A DNA stretch of 33,649 bases, taken from contig JAJEEH010000114.1 of NCBI GenBank assembly GCA_022821105.1, positions 1-33,649 of the forward strand, in the 5' to 3' direction. The translations under genes and the position numbers were made by a program. Source of the DNA: Acidimicrobiia bacterium. Lineage in GTDB: Bacteria > Actinomycetota > Acidimicrobiia > Acidimicrobiales > Bin134. Below, piece after piece: positions 17,349-21,219 of the stretch (positions are counted from its first letter, which is position 1; the number at the start of each line of letters is the position of its first letter). Below the pieces are notes generated by a model, which saw nothing but the letters and a program-made list of their open reading frames with translations, was not told the origin of the DNA and searched no databases.

Positions 17349-18163
17349 CCCTCACCCGCACCCAGGTGCTGGACCTGCTGGATCGCCACGGCCTGGCGCC
17401 CAGCCGGGCCATGGGCCAGAACTTCGTGGTCGACCCCAACACCATCGATGCCATGGTCCGGGCTGCGGAGCTGGCTCCCGAGGATTCAGTGGTCGAGATC
17501 GGCCCCGGGCTGGGGTCGCTTACTCGAGCGCTGGCCGCCGAGGTCCGCCACGTGCTCGCCGTGGAGGCCGACCGCCACCTGTTGGCCCCGCTGGCCGAGG
17601 TGGCCGACGCTCCCAACGTGGAGATCGTCCACGCCGATGCCACCACCACTGAGTGGCGAACGAAACTGGGCGCTAGCCAGAGCCGATGGGCGCTGGTGGC
17701 CAACCTGCCCTACAACATCGCCGTCCCCCTATTGCTCGACCTCTTGGACAACGAACCCCGCATCGAGACCTTCACCTTCATGGTGCAGCGAGAGGTGGCC
17801 GAGCGGCTGGTGGCCCCGGTGGGAACCAAGGCCTCCGGGATACCCACCCTCAAGGTGGCCTACTGGTGCGAAGCCCGCATCGTCCGCTCGGTGCCCGCCA
17901 CCGTCTTCTATCCCCGACCCCGAGAGTCATCCGCCGTGGTCCGCTTGGTCCGCCGTCCAGCCCCCGCCGTCGACGCCGACCCCGACCGCCTGTTCTTCCT
18001 CATCCGCACCGCCTTCGCCCAGCGCCGCAAAATGCTGCGCCGCTCCCTAGCCGCCCACCTCACCCCCGACCACTTCACCCAAGCGGCCATCCCCCCCACC
18101 GCCCGCCCCGAGCAGCTCACCCTCGCCGACTGGGCTGAGCTTTCTGCCATAGCCTCAGCTTGA
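17345..18163 (+). CDS. rsmA: 16S rRNA (adenine(1518)-N6/adenine(1519)-N6)-dimethyltransferase
   Basis: KsgA-type enzyme that dimethylates two adjacent adenines in the 3' hairpin of 16S rRNA during late 30S assembly. The 272-aa protein shows the SAM motif VVEIGPGLGSLTRAL, the acidic residue in LAVEADRHLL, HADAT, and the catalytic NLPYNIAVPLL motif, followed by MVQREVAERL and FYPRPRESSAVVRL. The GTG start overlaps the tatD stop (GTGA), and its TGA overlaps the ATG of ispE by one base (TGATG), so tatD, rsmA and ispE are translationally coupled. Confidence 0.96.
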   Translation: MTLTRTQVLDLLDRHGLAPSRAMGQNFVVDPNTIDAMVRAAELAPEDSVVEIGPGLGSLTRALAAEVRHVLAVEADRHLLAPLAEVADAPNVEIVHADATTTEWRTKLGASQSRWALVANLPYNIAVPLLLDLLDNEPRIETFTFMVQREVAERLVAPVGTKASGIPTLKVAYWCEARIVRSVPATVFYPRPRESSAVVRLVRRPAPAVDADPDRLFFLIRTAFAQRRKMLRRSLAAHLTPDHFTQAAIPPTARPEQLTLADWAELSAIASA

Positions 18164-18882
18164 TGACTACGGTCTCGGCTCCAGCCAAGCTCACGCTGTC
18201 GTTGCGCATCACCGGCGTGCGAGACGACGGGTACCACCTGATCGATGCCGAGATGGTGACGCTTGATTTGGACGACACGCTGAACATCGAGGCAGGCCAT
18301 GGGGTGGTTATCGAGGGCGATGGCGACGTTGACCCCGACGACAACCTCATCACCGGGGCGCTGGCCTTGGTGGGGCGCACAGCCCGTGTCACTGTGGCCA
18401 AGCGGATCCCGCCGGGGGCCGGATTGGGGGGAGGATCGGCCGACGCCGCCGCAATCCTCCGCTGGGCGGGTTACACCGATGTAGAGGGAGCAGCTCAGCT
18501 GGGGGCCGACGTCCCCTTTTGCTTGGTCGGCGGCAGGGCTCGTGTCCAGGGCATCGGCGAACTCGTGCAGCCGCTGGAGCACATCCCCCGAACGCTCACA
18601 CTGCTCATTCCCCCGTTCGGCTGCTCCACGCCCGCGGTGTACCGCCGTTGGGACGAGATGGGTGGTCCGGAGGGACCGAGAGGCAACGATCTTGAGCCCG
18701 CTGCTCTGGAAGTGGAACCCCGCCTGGACCGATATCGCCAGGCGCTAGAGCAGGCCACCGGCCAGATGGCGCGGCTGGCGGGAAGCGGCTCTTCCTGGTT
18801 TGTGGAGGGCGCCTACCCCGGAGACGGTCGCATCGTGGTGGGCACCGTACCGGCTGAATCCCAACCGGTGGGAGAAGGCTGA
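18163..18882 (+). CDS. ispE: 4-diphosphocytidyl-2-C-methyl-D-erythritol kinase (compact)
   Basis: GHMP kinase of the MEP isoprenoid pathway, phosphorylating CDP-methylerythritol. Seen are the N-terminal SAPAKLTLSLRITGVRDDGY with the catalytic-lysine motif, the ATP loop PPGAGLGGGSADAAA, GADVPFCLVGGRA and the glycine motif LAGSGSSWFVEG. At 239 aa it is clearly shorter than usual (about 280-310); the gap lies mainly between the ATP loop helix and GADVPF, and at the C-terminus. All motifs remain, so it is probably functional. ATG 18163 is chosen over the TTG one codon upstream. The stop codon lies in the first copy of the 43-bp repeat shared with the bS22 gene end. Confidence 0.9.
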   Translation: MTTVSAPAKLTLSLRITGVRDDGYHLIDAEMVTLDLDDTLNIEAGHGVVIEGDGDVDPDDNLITGALALVGRTARVTVAKRIPPGAGLGGGSADAAAILRWAGYTDVEGAAQLGADVPFCLVGGRARVQGIGELVQPLEHIPRTLTLLIPPFGCSTPAVYRRWDEMGGPEGPRGNDLEPAALEVEPRLDRYRQALEQATGQMARLAGSGSSWFVEGAYPGDGRIVVGTVPAESQPVGEG

Positions 18883-19142: not shown

Positions 19143-19215
19143 TGGCGAGTAGTTCAAGTGGCAGAACGCCTGGCTTTGGACCAGGAGGTTGCAGGTTCGA
19201 GTCCTGCCTCGCCAG
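19143..19215 (+). tRNA. tRNA-Gln (anticodon TTG)
   Basis: The sequence folds as a complete cloverleaf. The acceptor stem is TGGCGAG/CTCGCCA, the D-arm GTTC/GAAC, the anticodon stem CCTGG/CCAGG with loop CTTTGGA (anticodon TTG, reading CAA), the T-arm GCAGG/CCTGC with loop TTCGAGT, and G is the discriminator. The 3' CCA is not encoded (CCG follows). The variable loop is 5 nt. It lies just upstream of glmU, a frequent actinobacterial arrangement. Confidence 0.95.
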
Positions 19216-19246
19216 CCGCGCTAGAAATACAGCAGTGATTGTCGAG

Positions 19247-19268: not shown

Positions 19269-20234
19269 ATGACGGCTGATCCCCTTCCCCTGTCGGCGAT
19301 CGTGTTGGCCGCGGGCAGGGGTGCTCGCATGAGGTCGGGGCGGCCCAAGCCCCTCCACGATGTCTGCGGCCGGGCCATGCTCCTGCATGTGATCGACGCG
19401 GTGGCCGCGGTCAATCCCCGCCAGATCTCGGTTGTGGTGGGATTCGGCGCGGAAGAAGTGGCCAAGCATGTCACCGAGGAGGCCTACGACTTGCGCATCG
19501 ACTTTGTCGAGCAGCCCGTGCAGCGGGGCACGGCTGATGCCGCCGCCTTGGGGCTGTCGGCCCTGGACAGCGATGTCGACGATGAGGATGTGCTGGTGAT
19601 ACTGGCCGATATGCCGCTAATTCAGGGCCAGACACTGAGGGGCCTGACCTCCCAGCACCGGCTCGCCGGGTCGGCGGCCACCGTGGCCACTGCGGCTGAA
19701 GAGCCCGCCGAGCTCTTCTGCTTCCGCCGAGGCCTGCTGTCTCCCGCTTTGCGCCGGCTGGCGGCCAGCGACTCTGGGCTTGAGTACAGCCTCTCCGACG
19801 CCGTCGAAGTGCTCACCTCCGCAGGCCACGACTCGGGGTCGTATGCCATCGACGAGTCGGAGGCCCAGGGGGTGGACGACCGAGAGCAGCTGGCCTTCGC
19901 CGAGGCGGAGATGCGCCAGCGCATCAATCGCAACTGGATGGTTGCGGGAGTGCGCATTATGGCCCCCCACAGCGCGTACATCGACGTGAGCGTGAAGCTG
20001 ACCCCCGATGTGGTTATCCACCCCGGCGTGGTGCTAAGAGGACAAACGGTGATTGGCGAAGGTGCTGTAATCGGACCCCATACTCACTTGGTGGATTGCG
20101 TGGTCGGTCCCCGAGCGGTGGTAGAGGCGGTGTCGGCCACTGATGCCGAGATCGGGGCCGATGCCCAGGTGGGGGCCTACATCACCCTGGAGCCTGGCGC
20201 TCAGATCCCGCCCGCTTCGACTCAAGGAAACTGA
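19269..20234 (+). CDS. glmU: GlmU-like UDP-GlcNAc pyrophosphorylase lacking the acetyltransferase half
   Basis: The N-terminal uridyltransferase domain is recognisable: LAAGRGARM at 13-21 followed by RPKPLH (K27), then ADMPLI, EYSLSDAVEVL, and the linker INRNWMVAGVRIMAPHSAYI that precedes the left-handed beta-helix. Full-length GlmU is about 450-480 aa; this ends at 321 aa after roughly four or five hexapeptide coils and so lacks the C-terminal acetyltransferase active site (region of E. coli H363 and beyond). The next gene begins 4 nt after the stop, so no remnant follows. The nucleotide loop is also diverged (GRGARM for GxGTRM, TADA for TGHA). It probably makes UDP-sugar, but GlcN-1-P acetylation must come from elsewhere if it uses that route. 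Start ATG 19269. Confidence 0.85.
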   Translation: MTADPLPLSAIVLAAGRGARMRSGRPKPLHDVCGRAMLLHVIDAVAAVNPRQISVVVGFGAEEVAKHVTEEAYDLRIDFVEQPVQRGTADAAALGLSALDSDVDDEDVLVILADMPLIQGQTLRGLTSQHRLAGSAATVATAAEEPAELFCFRRGLLSPALRRLAASDSGLEYSLSDAVEVLTSAGHDSGSYAIDESEAQGVDDREQLAFAEAEMRQRINRNWMVAGVRIMAPHSAYIDVSVKLTPDVVIHPGVVLRGQTVIGEGAVIGPHTHLVDCVVGPRAVVEAVSATDAEIGADAQVGAYITLEPGAQIPPASTQGN

Positions 20235-20238
20235 ATCT

Positions 20239-21219
20239 ATGGAACTTGTCACCAAGAAGAAGCTGGCCATCATCTCAGGCCGGGCCAATCACGACCTGGC
20301 TGCTGAGATTGCCGACGCTCTCGGCGAGGAGTTGGTGGAGCCCAACATCGCCGACTTCGCCAACGGTGAGATCCACTGTCGATTCGAGGAGTCGGTGAGG
20401 GGCACCGACGTGTTCATCGTCCAGAGCCACACCGCCCACGGCGACGCCTCCATCAACGACGCCGTTATGGAGCACCTCATCATGGTGGACGCAGCCCGGC
20501 GGGCCTCGGCCAAGCGCATCACCGCGGTGTGCCCCTTCTACGGCTATGGCCGCCAAGACCGCAAAGCCGCGGGCCGCGAGCCCATCACCGCCAAGCTGAT
20601 GGCCAACACCTTCCGTACCGCCGGAGCCAATCGGATGCTGAGCGTCGACCTCCACTCCGGTCAGATCCAGGGATTCTTCGACGGCCCTTGGGACCACCTC
20701 ACCGCCATGCCGGTGCTGGTGGACTATCTCAGGGACTTCAACGGCGAACTGGTGATCGTGTCGCCCGACGCTGGCCGGGTGAAGGTGGCCGAGCGCTACA
20801 CCAACGAGCTGGACGCCGACCTGGCCATCGTCCACAAGCGCCGGGCCATGGACGTCAAGCACGCGGTGGAGGTGATAGAGGTGGTGGGCGACGTGGAAGG
20901 CCGCACCTGCGTGCTCATCGACGACATGATCGACACCGGGGGCACCATCGTGGCCGCAGCCGACGCCCTGGCGGCCCGGGGGGCGGCCACCATCGTTGCC
21001 GCCACCACCCACGGCGTGTTCTCCGGCCCAGCCATAGACCGTCTCAAGAACTCGGTGATCTCCAAGGTGGTGGTCACCAACACCCTGCCGCTGTCGCCCG
21101 ACAAGCAGATCGACAAGATCGAGGTGCTCTCGGTGGCCCGAATCATCGCCGACGCCATCGACGCCGTGTTCGAGGACACCTCAGTCTCCGAGATCTTCGG
21201 CGGCAAGAACCTCTCGTAG
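20239..21219 (+). CDS. prs: Ribose-phosphate pyrophosphokinase (PRPP synthetase)
   Basis: Makes PRPP from ribose-5-phosphate and ATP for purine, pyrimidine, NAD, His and Trp synthesis. The 326-aa protein shows IADFANGEIHCRFEESVRG at the N-terminus, the ATP-loop region VCPFYGYGRQDRK, VDLHSGQIQGFF, and the PRPP motif CVLIDDMIDTGGTI. The start at 20239 follows AAGGA and lies 4 nt after the glmU stop. The glmU-prs pair is conserved in Actinobacteria and Firmicutes. Salvage by the nucleoside operon at the window's left would feed the same nucleotide pools. Confidence 0.97.
   Translation: MELVTKKKLAIISGRANHDLAAEIADALGEELVEPNIADFANGEIHCRFEESVRGTDVFIVQSHTAHGDASINDAVMEHLIMVDAARRASAKRITAVCPFYGYGRQDRKAAGREPITAKLMANTFRTAGANRMLSVDLHSGQIQGFFDGPWDHLTAMPVLVDYLRDFNGELVIVSPDAGRVKVAERYTNELDADLAIVHKRRAMDVKHAVEVIEVVGDVEGRTCVLIDDMIDTGGTIVAAADALAARGAATIVAATTHGVFSGPAIDRLKNSVISKVVVTNTLPLSPDKQIDKIEVLSVARIIADAIDAVFEDTSVSEIFGGKNLS

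Follow-up and report, generated by a model that had tools for sequence, protein, structure and literature searches.

GlmU of sponge-living Candidatus Poriferisocius appears stripped of both classical activities, with a 3pnn-type nucleotidyltransferase as candidate replacement

The glmU orthologue of Candidatus Poriferisocius, a genus of sponge-living Acidimicrobiia, predicts a protein that lacks both the C-terminal acetyltransferase domain and the sugar-binding lobe of the uridyltransferase domain. The reading that we favour, at a probability of roughly 0.6, is that both classical activities would have been lost in two steps, and that a separate sugar nucleotidyltransferase, designated NT280, would have taken over the uridyltransferase step. 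GlmU makes the cell-wall precursor UDP-GlcNAc, and is regarded as nearly universal and essential in bacteria and as an antibiotic target. A literature search found no paper that treats GlmU together with Acidimicrobiia, and none that describes such a replacement.

The glmU locus

The window, meaning the whole stretch of DNA analysed, comprises 33,649 nt of contig JAJEEH010000114.1 from a metagenome-assembled genome (MAG) of 3.28 Mb in 302 contigs that is 90% complete [GenBank assembly GCA_022821105.1]. The genomes compared with it are also mostly incomplete MAGs, and 22 genomes of the genus, including this one, were available. Translation of the ORF identified as glmU gives 321 aa and a stop codon, and prs begins 4 nt past the TGA, in agreement with an earlier note made from the sequence of the window. 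The order ispE, tRNA-Gln(ttg), glmU, prs (Table 1) identifies the 321-aa ORF as the GlmU orthologue by position, and the overall fold is that of GlmU. In Pfam the protein matches an NTP transferase domain (MobA-like) and a single hexapeptide stretch. GlmU models are its best matches in NCBIfam, yet all score far below their cut-offs. The match to the equivalog TIGR01173 reaches 228.6 bits in two pieces, covering model positions of about 2-129 and 169-343, where the curated cut-off is 366.85 bits over 452 positions.

Table 1. Location of features at the glmU locus of the window and at loci in other genomes.
Feature	Location	Strand	Description and basis
ispE-like GHMP kinase	18160..18882	+	Conserved syntenic neighbour; syntenic in L179, L183 and L180
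tRNA-Gln (ttg)	19143..19217	+	ARAGORN; conserved upstream neighbour marking the syntenic glmU slot; same order in relatives
glmU remnant, 321 aa	19269..20234	+	Nucleotidyltransferase core without sugar-binding lobe, helical arm, start of left-handed beta-helix; domain and GlmU-model matches, GlmU structure matches, purifying selection
Nucleotide-binding loop LAAGRGARMRSGRPKPLH	19305..19358	+	G14, R18 and K25 equivalents retained; residues 17-26 modelled with low confidence
ADMPLI	19605..19622	+	Equivalent of the Mg2+ ligand D105 kept
Internal deletion junction	19695..19700	+	About 37 residues gone between residues 143 and 144 of the remnant, including G140 and E154
GVDDR	19869..19883	+	N227 equivalent changed to D; alignment
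First coils of left-handed beta-helix	19965..20231	+	Stop at about E. coli position 346, short of K351, H363, Y366, N377 and K392
prs (ribose-phosphate pyrophosphokinase)	20239..21219	+	4 nt downstream of the glmU remnant
NT280 relatives directly followed by NahK-type kinases	L339:1501-3467; L354:3986-6045		Another family of the order; Hymenobacter plasmid
Enlarged GlmS, examples	L186:10785-14291; L192:5833-9186; L189:11364-14519		Further examples at other glmM loci

Loss of the acetyltransferase domain across the order

Aligned with E. coli GlmU (from NC_000913), the 321-aa protein stops upstream of all five residues that we take to form the acetyltransferase site (Table 1). The earlier note had described a GlmU without its acetyltransferase half, and this was borne out, as neither a second GlmU nor a stand-alone protein resembling the hexapeptide-repeat C-terminal domain was found in the host genome. 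The loss had been attributed to this lineage, but comparison of GlmU lengths reveals that the C-terminal cut is common to the whole order. In the 60 relatives, GlmU alignments to TIGR01173 break off at around position 344 of the model's 452, and no full-length protein was seen at the locus. In a phylum-wide sample of 158 genomes, GlmU again stops close to 344 in the members of the order that were listed (at 362 in one of them), and it reaches about 450 in the three genomes sampled from other orders of the class (G075, G102 and G113) and in most of the remaining phylum. The missing acetyltransferase half is therefore a feature of the order and not of this lineage.

The shortened GlmU typical of the order is about 365 aa long, and the uridyltransferase site is intact in most families. 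Like the Poriferisocius remnant, it lies beside prs and stops close to E. coli position 350-357. Family f47 (G078, G104, G178, G198 and G208), in the same phylum but outside the class, has a GlmU that was shortened independently and breaks off at about model position 334-355.

Deletion within the uridyltransferase domain

Poriferisocius GlmU differs from the form typical of the order, which keeps GYGR, E154 and N227, in a further, internal deletion. The uridyltransferase domain is short of about 37 internal residues, corresponding to E. coli positions of about 134-168, and for this reason the GlmU model always matches in two pieces. G140, E154 and N169 are, on residue roles from known GlmU structures, presumably the sugar-binding residues of the site. 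The first two fall in the deleted segment, and the equivalent of N169 is P in the copy in the window and variable among congeners. At the N227 equivalent the Poriferisocius copies have D. Hence, the uridyltransferase domain that had been reported as present is there as a nucleotidyltransferase core but not as a complete domain.

The equivalents of G14, R18, K25, Q76, G81, T82 and D105 are kept in the Poriferisocius copies, so that the nucleotide loop is present together with K25, Q76, T82 and D105, though its motifs have indeed diverged as had been noted. The AlphaFold model of the remnant has a mean pLDDT of 78, falling below 50 at residues 17-26, and GlmU structures are still its best matches, 2qkx ranking first. 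The bifunctional enzymes of M. tuberculosis and E. coli, the best structural matches, thus share with the remnant the glycine-rich loop, these four residues, the helical arm and the start of the beta-helix, but are 456 aa rather than 321 aa long and include the acetyltransferase domain, the sugar-binding lobe with G140 and E154, and N227 in place of D. The missing residues suggest that the remnant would be catalytically dead.

The gene was found in 19 of the 22 Poriferisocius genomes, including that of the window, with 81-100% identity. Further decay was found elsewhere. In G004 and G017, two streamlined congeners, glmU is cleanly gone and tRNA-Gln is followed by prs, and in two other families (G047 and G055) there is likewise no gene left between them. 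G048 has a degenerate frame of 336 codons at the site that lacks the nucleotide loop, and G140, E154 and N169 are all altered together in G029, G033, G038 and G052. In G054 and G059, GlmU was detected neither at the prs locus nor with the GlmU model. MurA and GlmM matches are present in all 60 relatives, indicating that UDP-GlcNAc is still needed and must be made another way in Poriferisocius.

NT280, a candidate replacement

NT280 is a sugar nucleotidyltransferase of 267-291 aa that was reached via G047 and G055, which lack GlmU, and that is also found in G017, at G017:C18:7611-8411. It matches the Porphyromonas gingivalis structure PDB 3pnn over its full length (profile E-value 3e-64, TM-score 0.89), placing it among the 3pnn-type sugar phosphate nucleotidyltransferases, and the predicted structure has a pLDDT of 91. 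A full set of sugar-nucleotidyltransferase motifs is present (GLGSRFGGxKQ, KPWGTAHA, NADDYYG, VSMNxWAF and GVTNP).

Searches with an NT280 alignment detected it in all 22 Poriferisocius genomes, split across two contigs in one (G000). It occurs in 10 of 10 families with a damaged or absent GlmU (Poriferisocius and G047, G048, G054, G055, G059, G033, G038, G029 and G052) and, as a distant form, in only 3 of 27 families with intact GlmU sites (G025, G042 and G043). The association gives a Fisher p of 8e-7, from families that are not independent and with no correction for phylogeny. The GlmU copies in G022 and G042, a fragment and one broken by a contig end, were both scored as intact, and G031 and G051, which have neither NT280 nor GlmU, were excluded because prs was also not found in either assembly. 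In a tree of prs the state of GlmU changes at least 6 times, and the well-supported branches supply only 2 independent pairs, both in the expected direction.

Two relatives of NT280, one in G025 and one encoded on a Hymenobacter plasmid, have an NahK-type N-acetylhexosamine 1-kinase as their neighbour, and on the plasmid the two genes overlap. These neighbours suggest that at least some members of the NT280 family use HexNAc-1-phosphate. Taken with the co-occurrence, they make NT280 the best candidate for a GlcNAc-1-P uridyltransferase. Unlike the 3pnn-type genes that adjoin NahK, NT280 was not seen with a kinase beside it in Poriferisocius, and its substrate is proposed to come from the GlmS-GlmM route rather than from salvage. 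GlmM and MurA are present in G017, though no match to GlmS or to an NahK-type kinase was found in the approximately 77% of this 1.8 Mb genome that was covered. In G017, glmM is not followed by glmS as it usually is.

Alternatively, NT280 may be a UDP-glucose pyrophosphorylase that has nothing to do with the change in GlmU, with UDP-GlcNAc supplied by another, unseen enzyme and the co-occurrence due to shared ancestry in two clades. The nearest folds to NT280 in Foldseek after 3pnn are mainly UDP-glucose pyrophosphorylases (GalU) and RmlA, indicating that UDP-glucose may be the product, and no ordinary GalU was found in G017; the small number of independent pairs also fits. Although the fold is shared, identity to RmlA and GalU is low at about 14-22%. 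This explanation is considered unlikely, as it does not account for the NahK HexNAc-1-kinases beside relatives of NT280, and as PF00483 matches in G047, which has MurA, are limited to NT280 and an IspD-like protein. A UAP1-type pyrophosphorylase is not available as the other enzyme, since PF01704 matches nothing in the genus. Among the 60 relatives PF01704 matches a single UAP1/UGP-type pyrophosphorylase (G027:C1:3063911-3065017), in a genome of another family whose GlmU site is intact. An RmlA-type protein was also rejected, since the PF00483 matches in G017 are a mannose-1-P guanylyltransferase-like protein and an RmlA that is encoded separately from NT280, within an rmlACBD operon.

It is distinctly unlikely that the remnant is itself still a GlcNAc-1-P uridyltransferase, a compact form in which other residues hold the sugar and a separate acetyltransferase is the partner. 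The kept nucleotide-site residues, the strong purifying selection described below and the continued best match of the model to GlmU would all be expected of such an enzyme. However, G140 and E154 are deleted and N227 is replaced, two congeners with MurA and GlmM have no such gene at all, and GlmU is likewise damaged or missing in the other families that carry the close form of NT280. The first half had been taken for a working GlcNAc-1-P uridyltransferase, and this would no longer hold given the deleted lobe and the nucleotidyltransferase that co-occurs with the damage. For the same two reasons a change to a different sugar-1-phosphate, also proposed earlier, is unlikely, though some other nucleotidyl transfer is possible.

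Selection on the remnant

Pairwise comparison of the Poriferisocius loci gives a median dN/dS of 0.11 for the remnant, against 0.06 for prs. The protein sequence of the remnant is thus under purifying selection, and the gene has probably been repurposed rather than being a pseudogene. Many residues are invariant in the start of the beta-helix and in the nucleotide loop, and the retention of these two regions, with the dN/dS, suggests that the remnant may bind a nucleotide in a scaffold or sensor role.

An AAGGA-type ribosome-binding sequence in the last codons of the remnant lies upstream of prs and may serve it. The gene could accordingly be decaying slowly and be kept only for this sequence at its 3′-end and for translational coupling to prs, as the sequence and the short spacing occur in nearly all congeners and the gene has gone in G004 and G017. 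This is very unlikely, since coupling by itself would not select the protein sequence, and a dN/dS of about 0.11 applies over the whole length, with the many invariant residues named above. An assembly or sequencing artefact, conceivable for a window drawn from a fragmented MAG, has a negligible probability, as congeners share the length (320-331 aa), the deletion junction and the spacing of a few nt to prs, including at two loci on single-contig chromosomes [GenBank accession numbers OX638344.1 and OX638350.1].

Search for an acetyltransferase

Apart from the remnant, Hexapep matches in the host genome were taken to be DapD, a protein resembling gamma-carbonic anhydrase, a piece of a sugar nucleotidyltransferase and repeat-rich frames, and none resembled a stand-alone C-terminal domain of GlmU. 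The conserved genes around glmM and glmS are rplM, rpsI, glmM, an enlarged glmS and that for alanine racemase, and none of the products was recognised as an acetyltransferase. In many families of the order the GlmS encoded beside glmM has a length of about 1050-1200 aa, and in others it is of the ordinary 613 aa. The enlarged form carries an insertion ahead of the remainder of the glutaminase domain, and is extended at the C-terminus by ∼300 aa that match nothing in Pfam. It was rejected as a hidden acetyltransferase, as Pfam finds only GATase and SIS domains in it and families with the 613-aa GlmS also have a truncated GlmU. The GNAT encoded beside NT280 in G054 is of the tandem type and may be MshD-like; it was not counted as evidence.

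Proposed explanation and significance

The favoured loss of both activities in two steps would begin with the ancestor of the order, in which GlmU lost its C-terminal domain, leaving a protein of ∼365 aa whose uridyltransferase site has survived in most families. Some other acetyltransferase would then have supplied GlcNAc-1-P, or GlcNAc-6-P. In the second step, as the co-occurrence suggests, NT280 would have taken on the reaction of UTP with GlcNAc-1-P in the Poriferisocius lineage and several other families, freeing GlmU. The loss of the sugar-binding lobe in Poriferisocius, the clean deletion in two congeners and the point decay or full loss in other families would have followed. The remnant would keep a nucleotide-binding pocket and a beta-helix trimer, serving as a scaffold, a nucleotide sensor or a catalyst of a different nucleotidyl transfer, and would be dispensable in the smallest genomes.

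A broader form of this explanation is advanced tentatively, with the odds slightly against it. The order as a whole would make UDP-GlcNAc without the GlmU acetyltransferase, via an undescribed GlcN-phosphate acetyltransferase, and in at least two clades a 3pnn-type nucleotidyltransferase would have displaced the GlmU uridyltransferase too, with GlmU either retained by selection as a pseudoenzyme with a new role or deleted.

An annotation as bifunctional GlmU is unsuited to these genes. If the explanation is correct, at least one missing enzyme of peptidoglycan precursor synthesis would be exposed and the GlmU step would be shown to be replaceable. The intact, damaged, remnant and deleted forms of GlmU would then provide a natural series for studying non-orthologous replacement.
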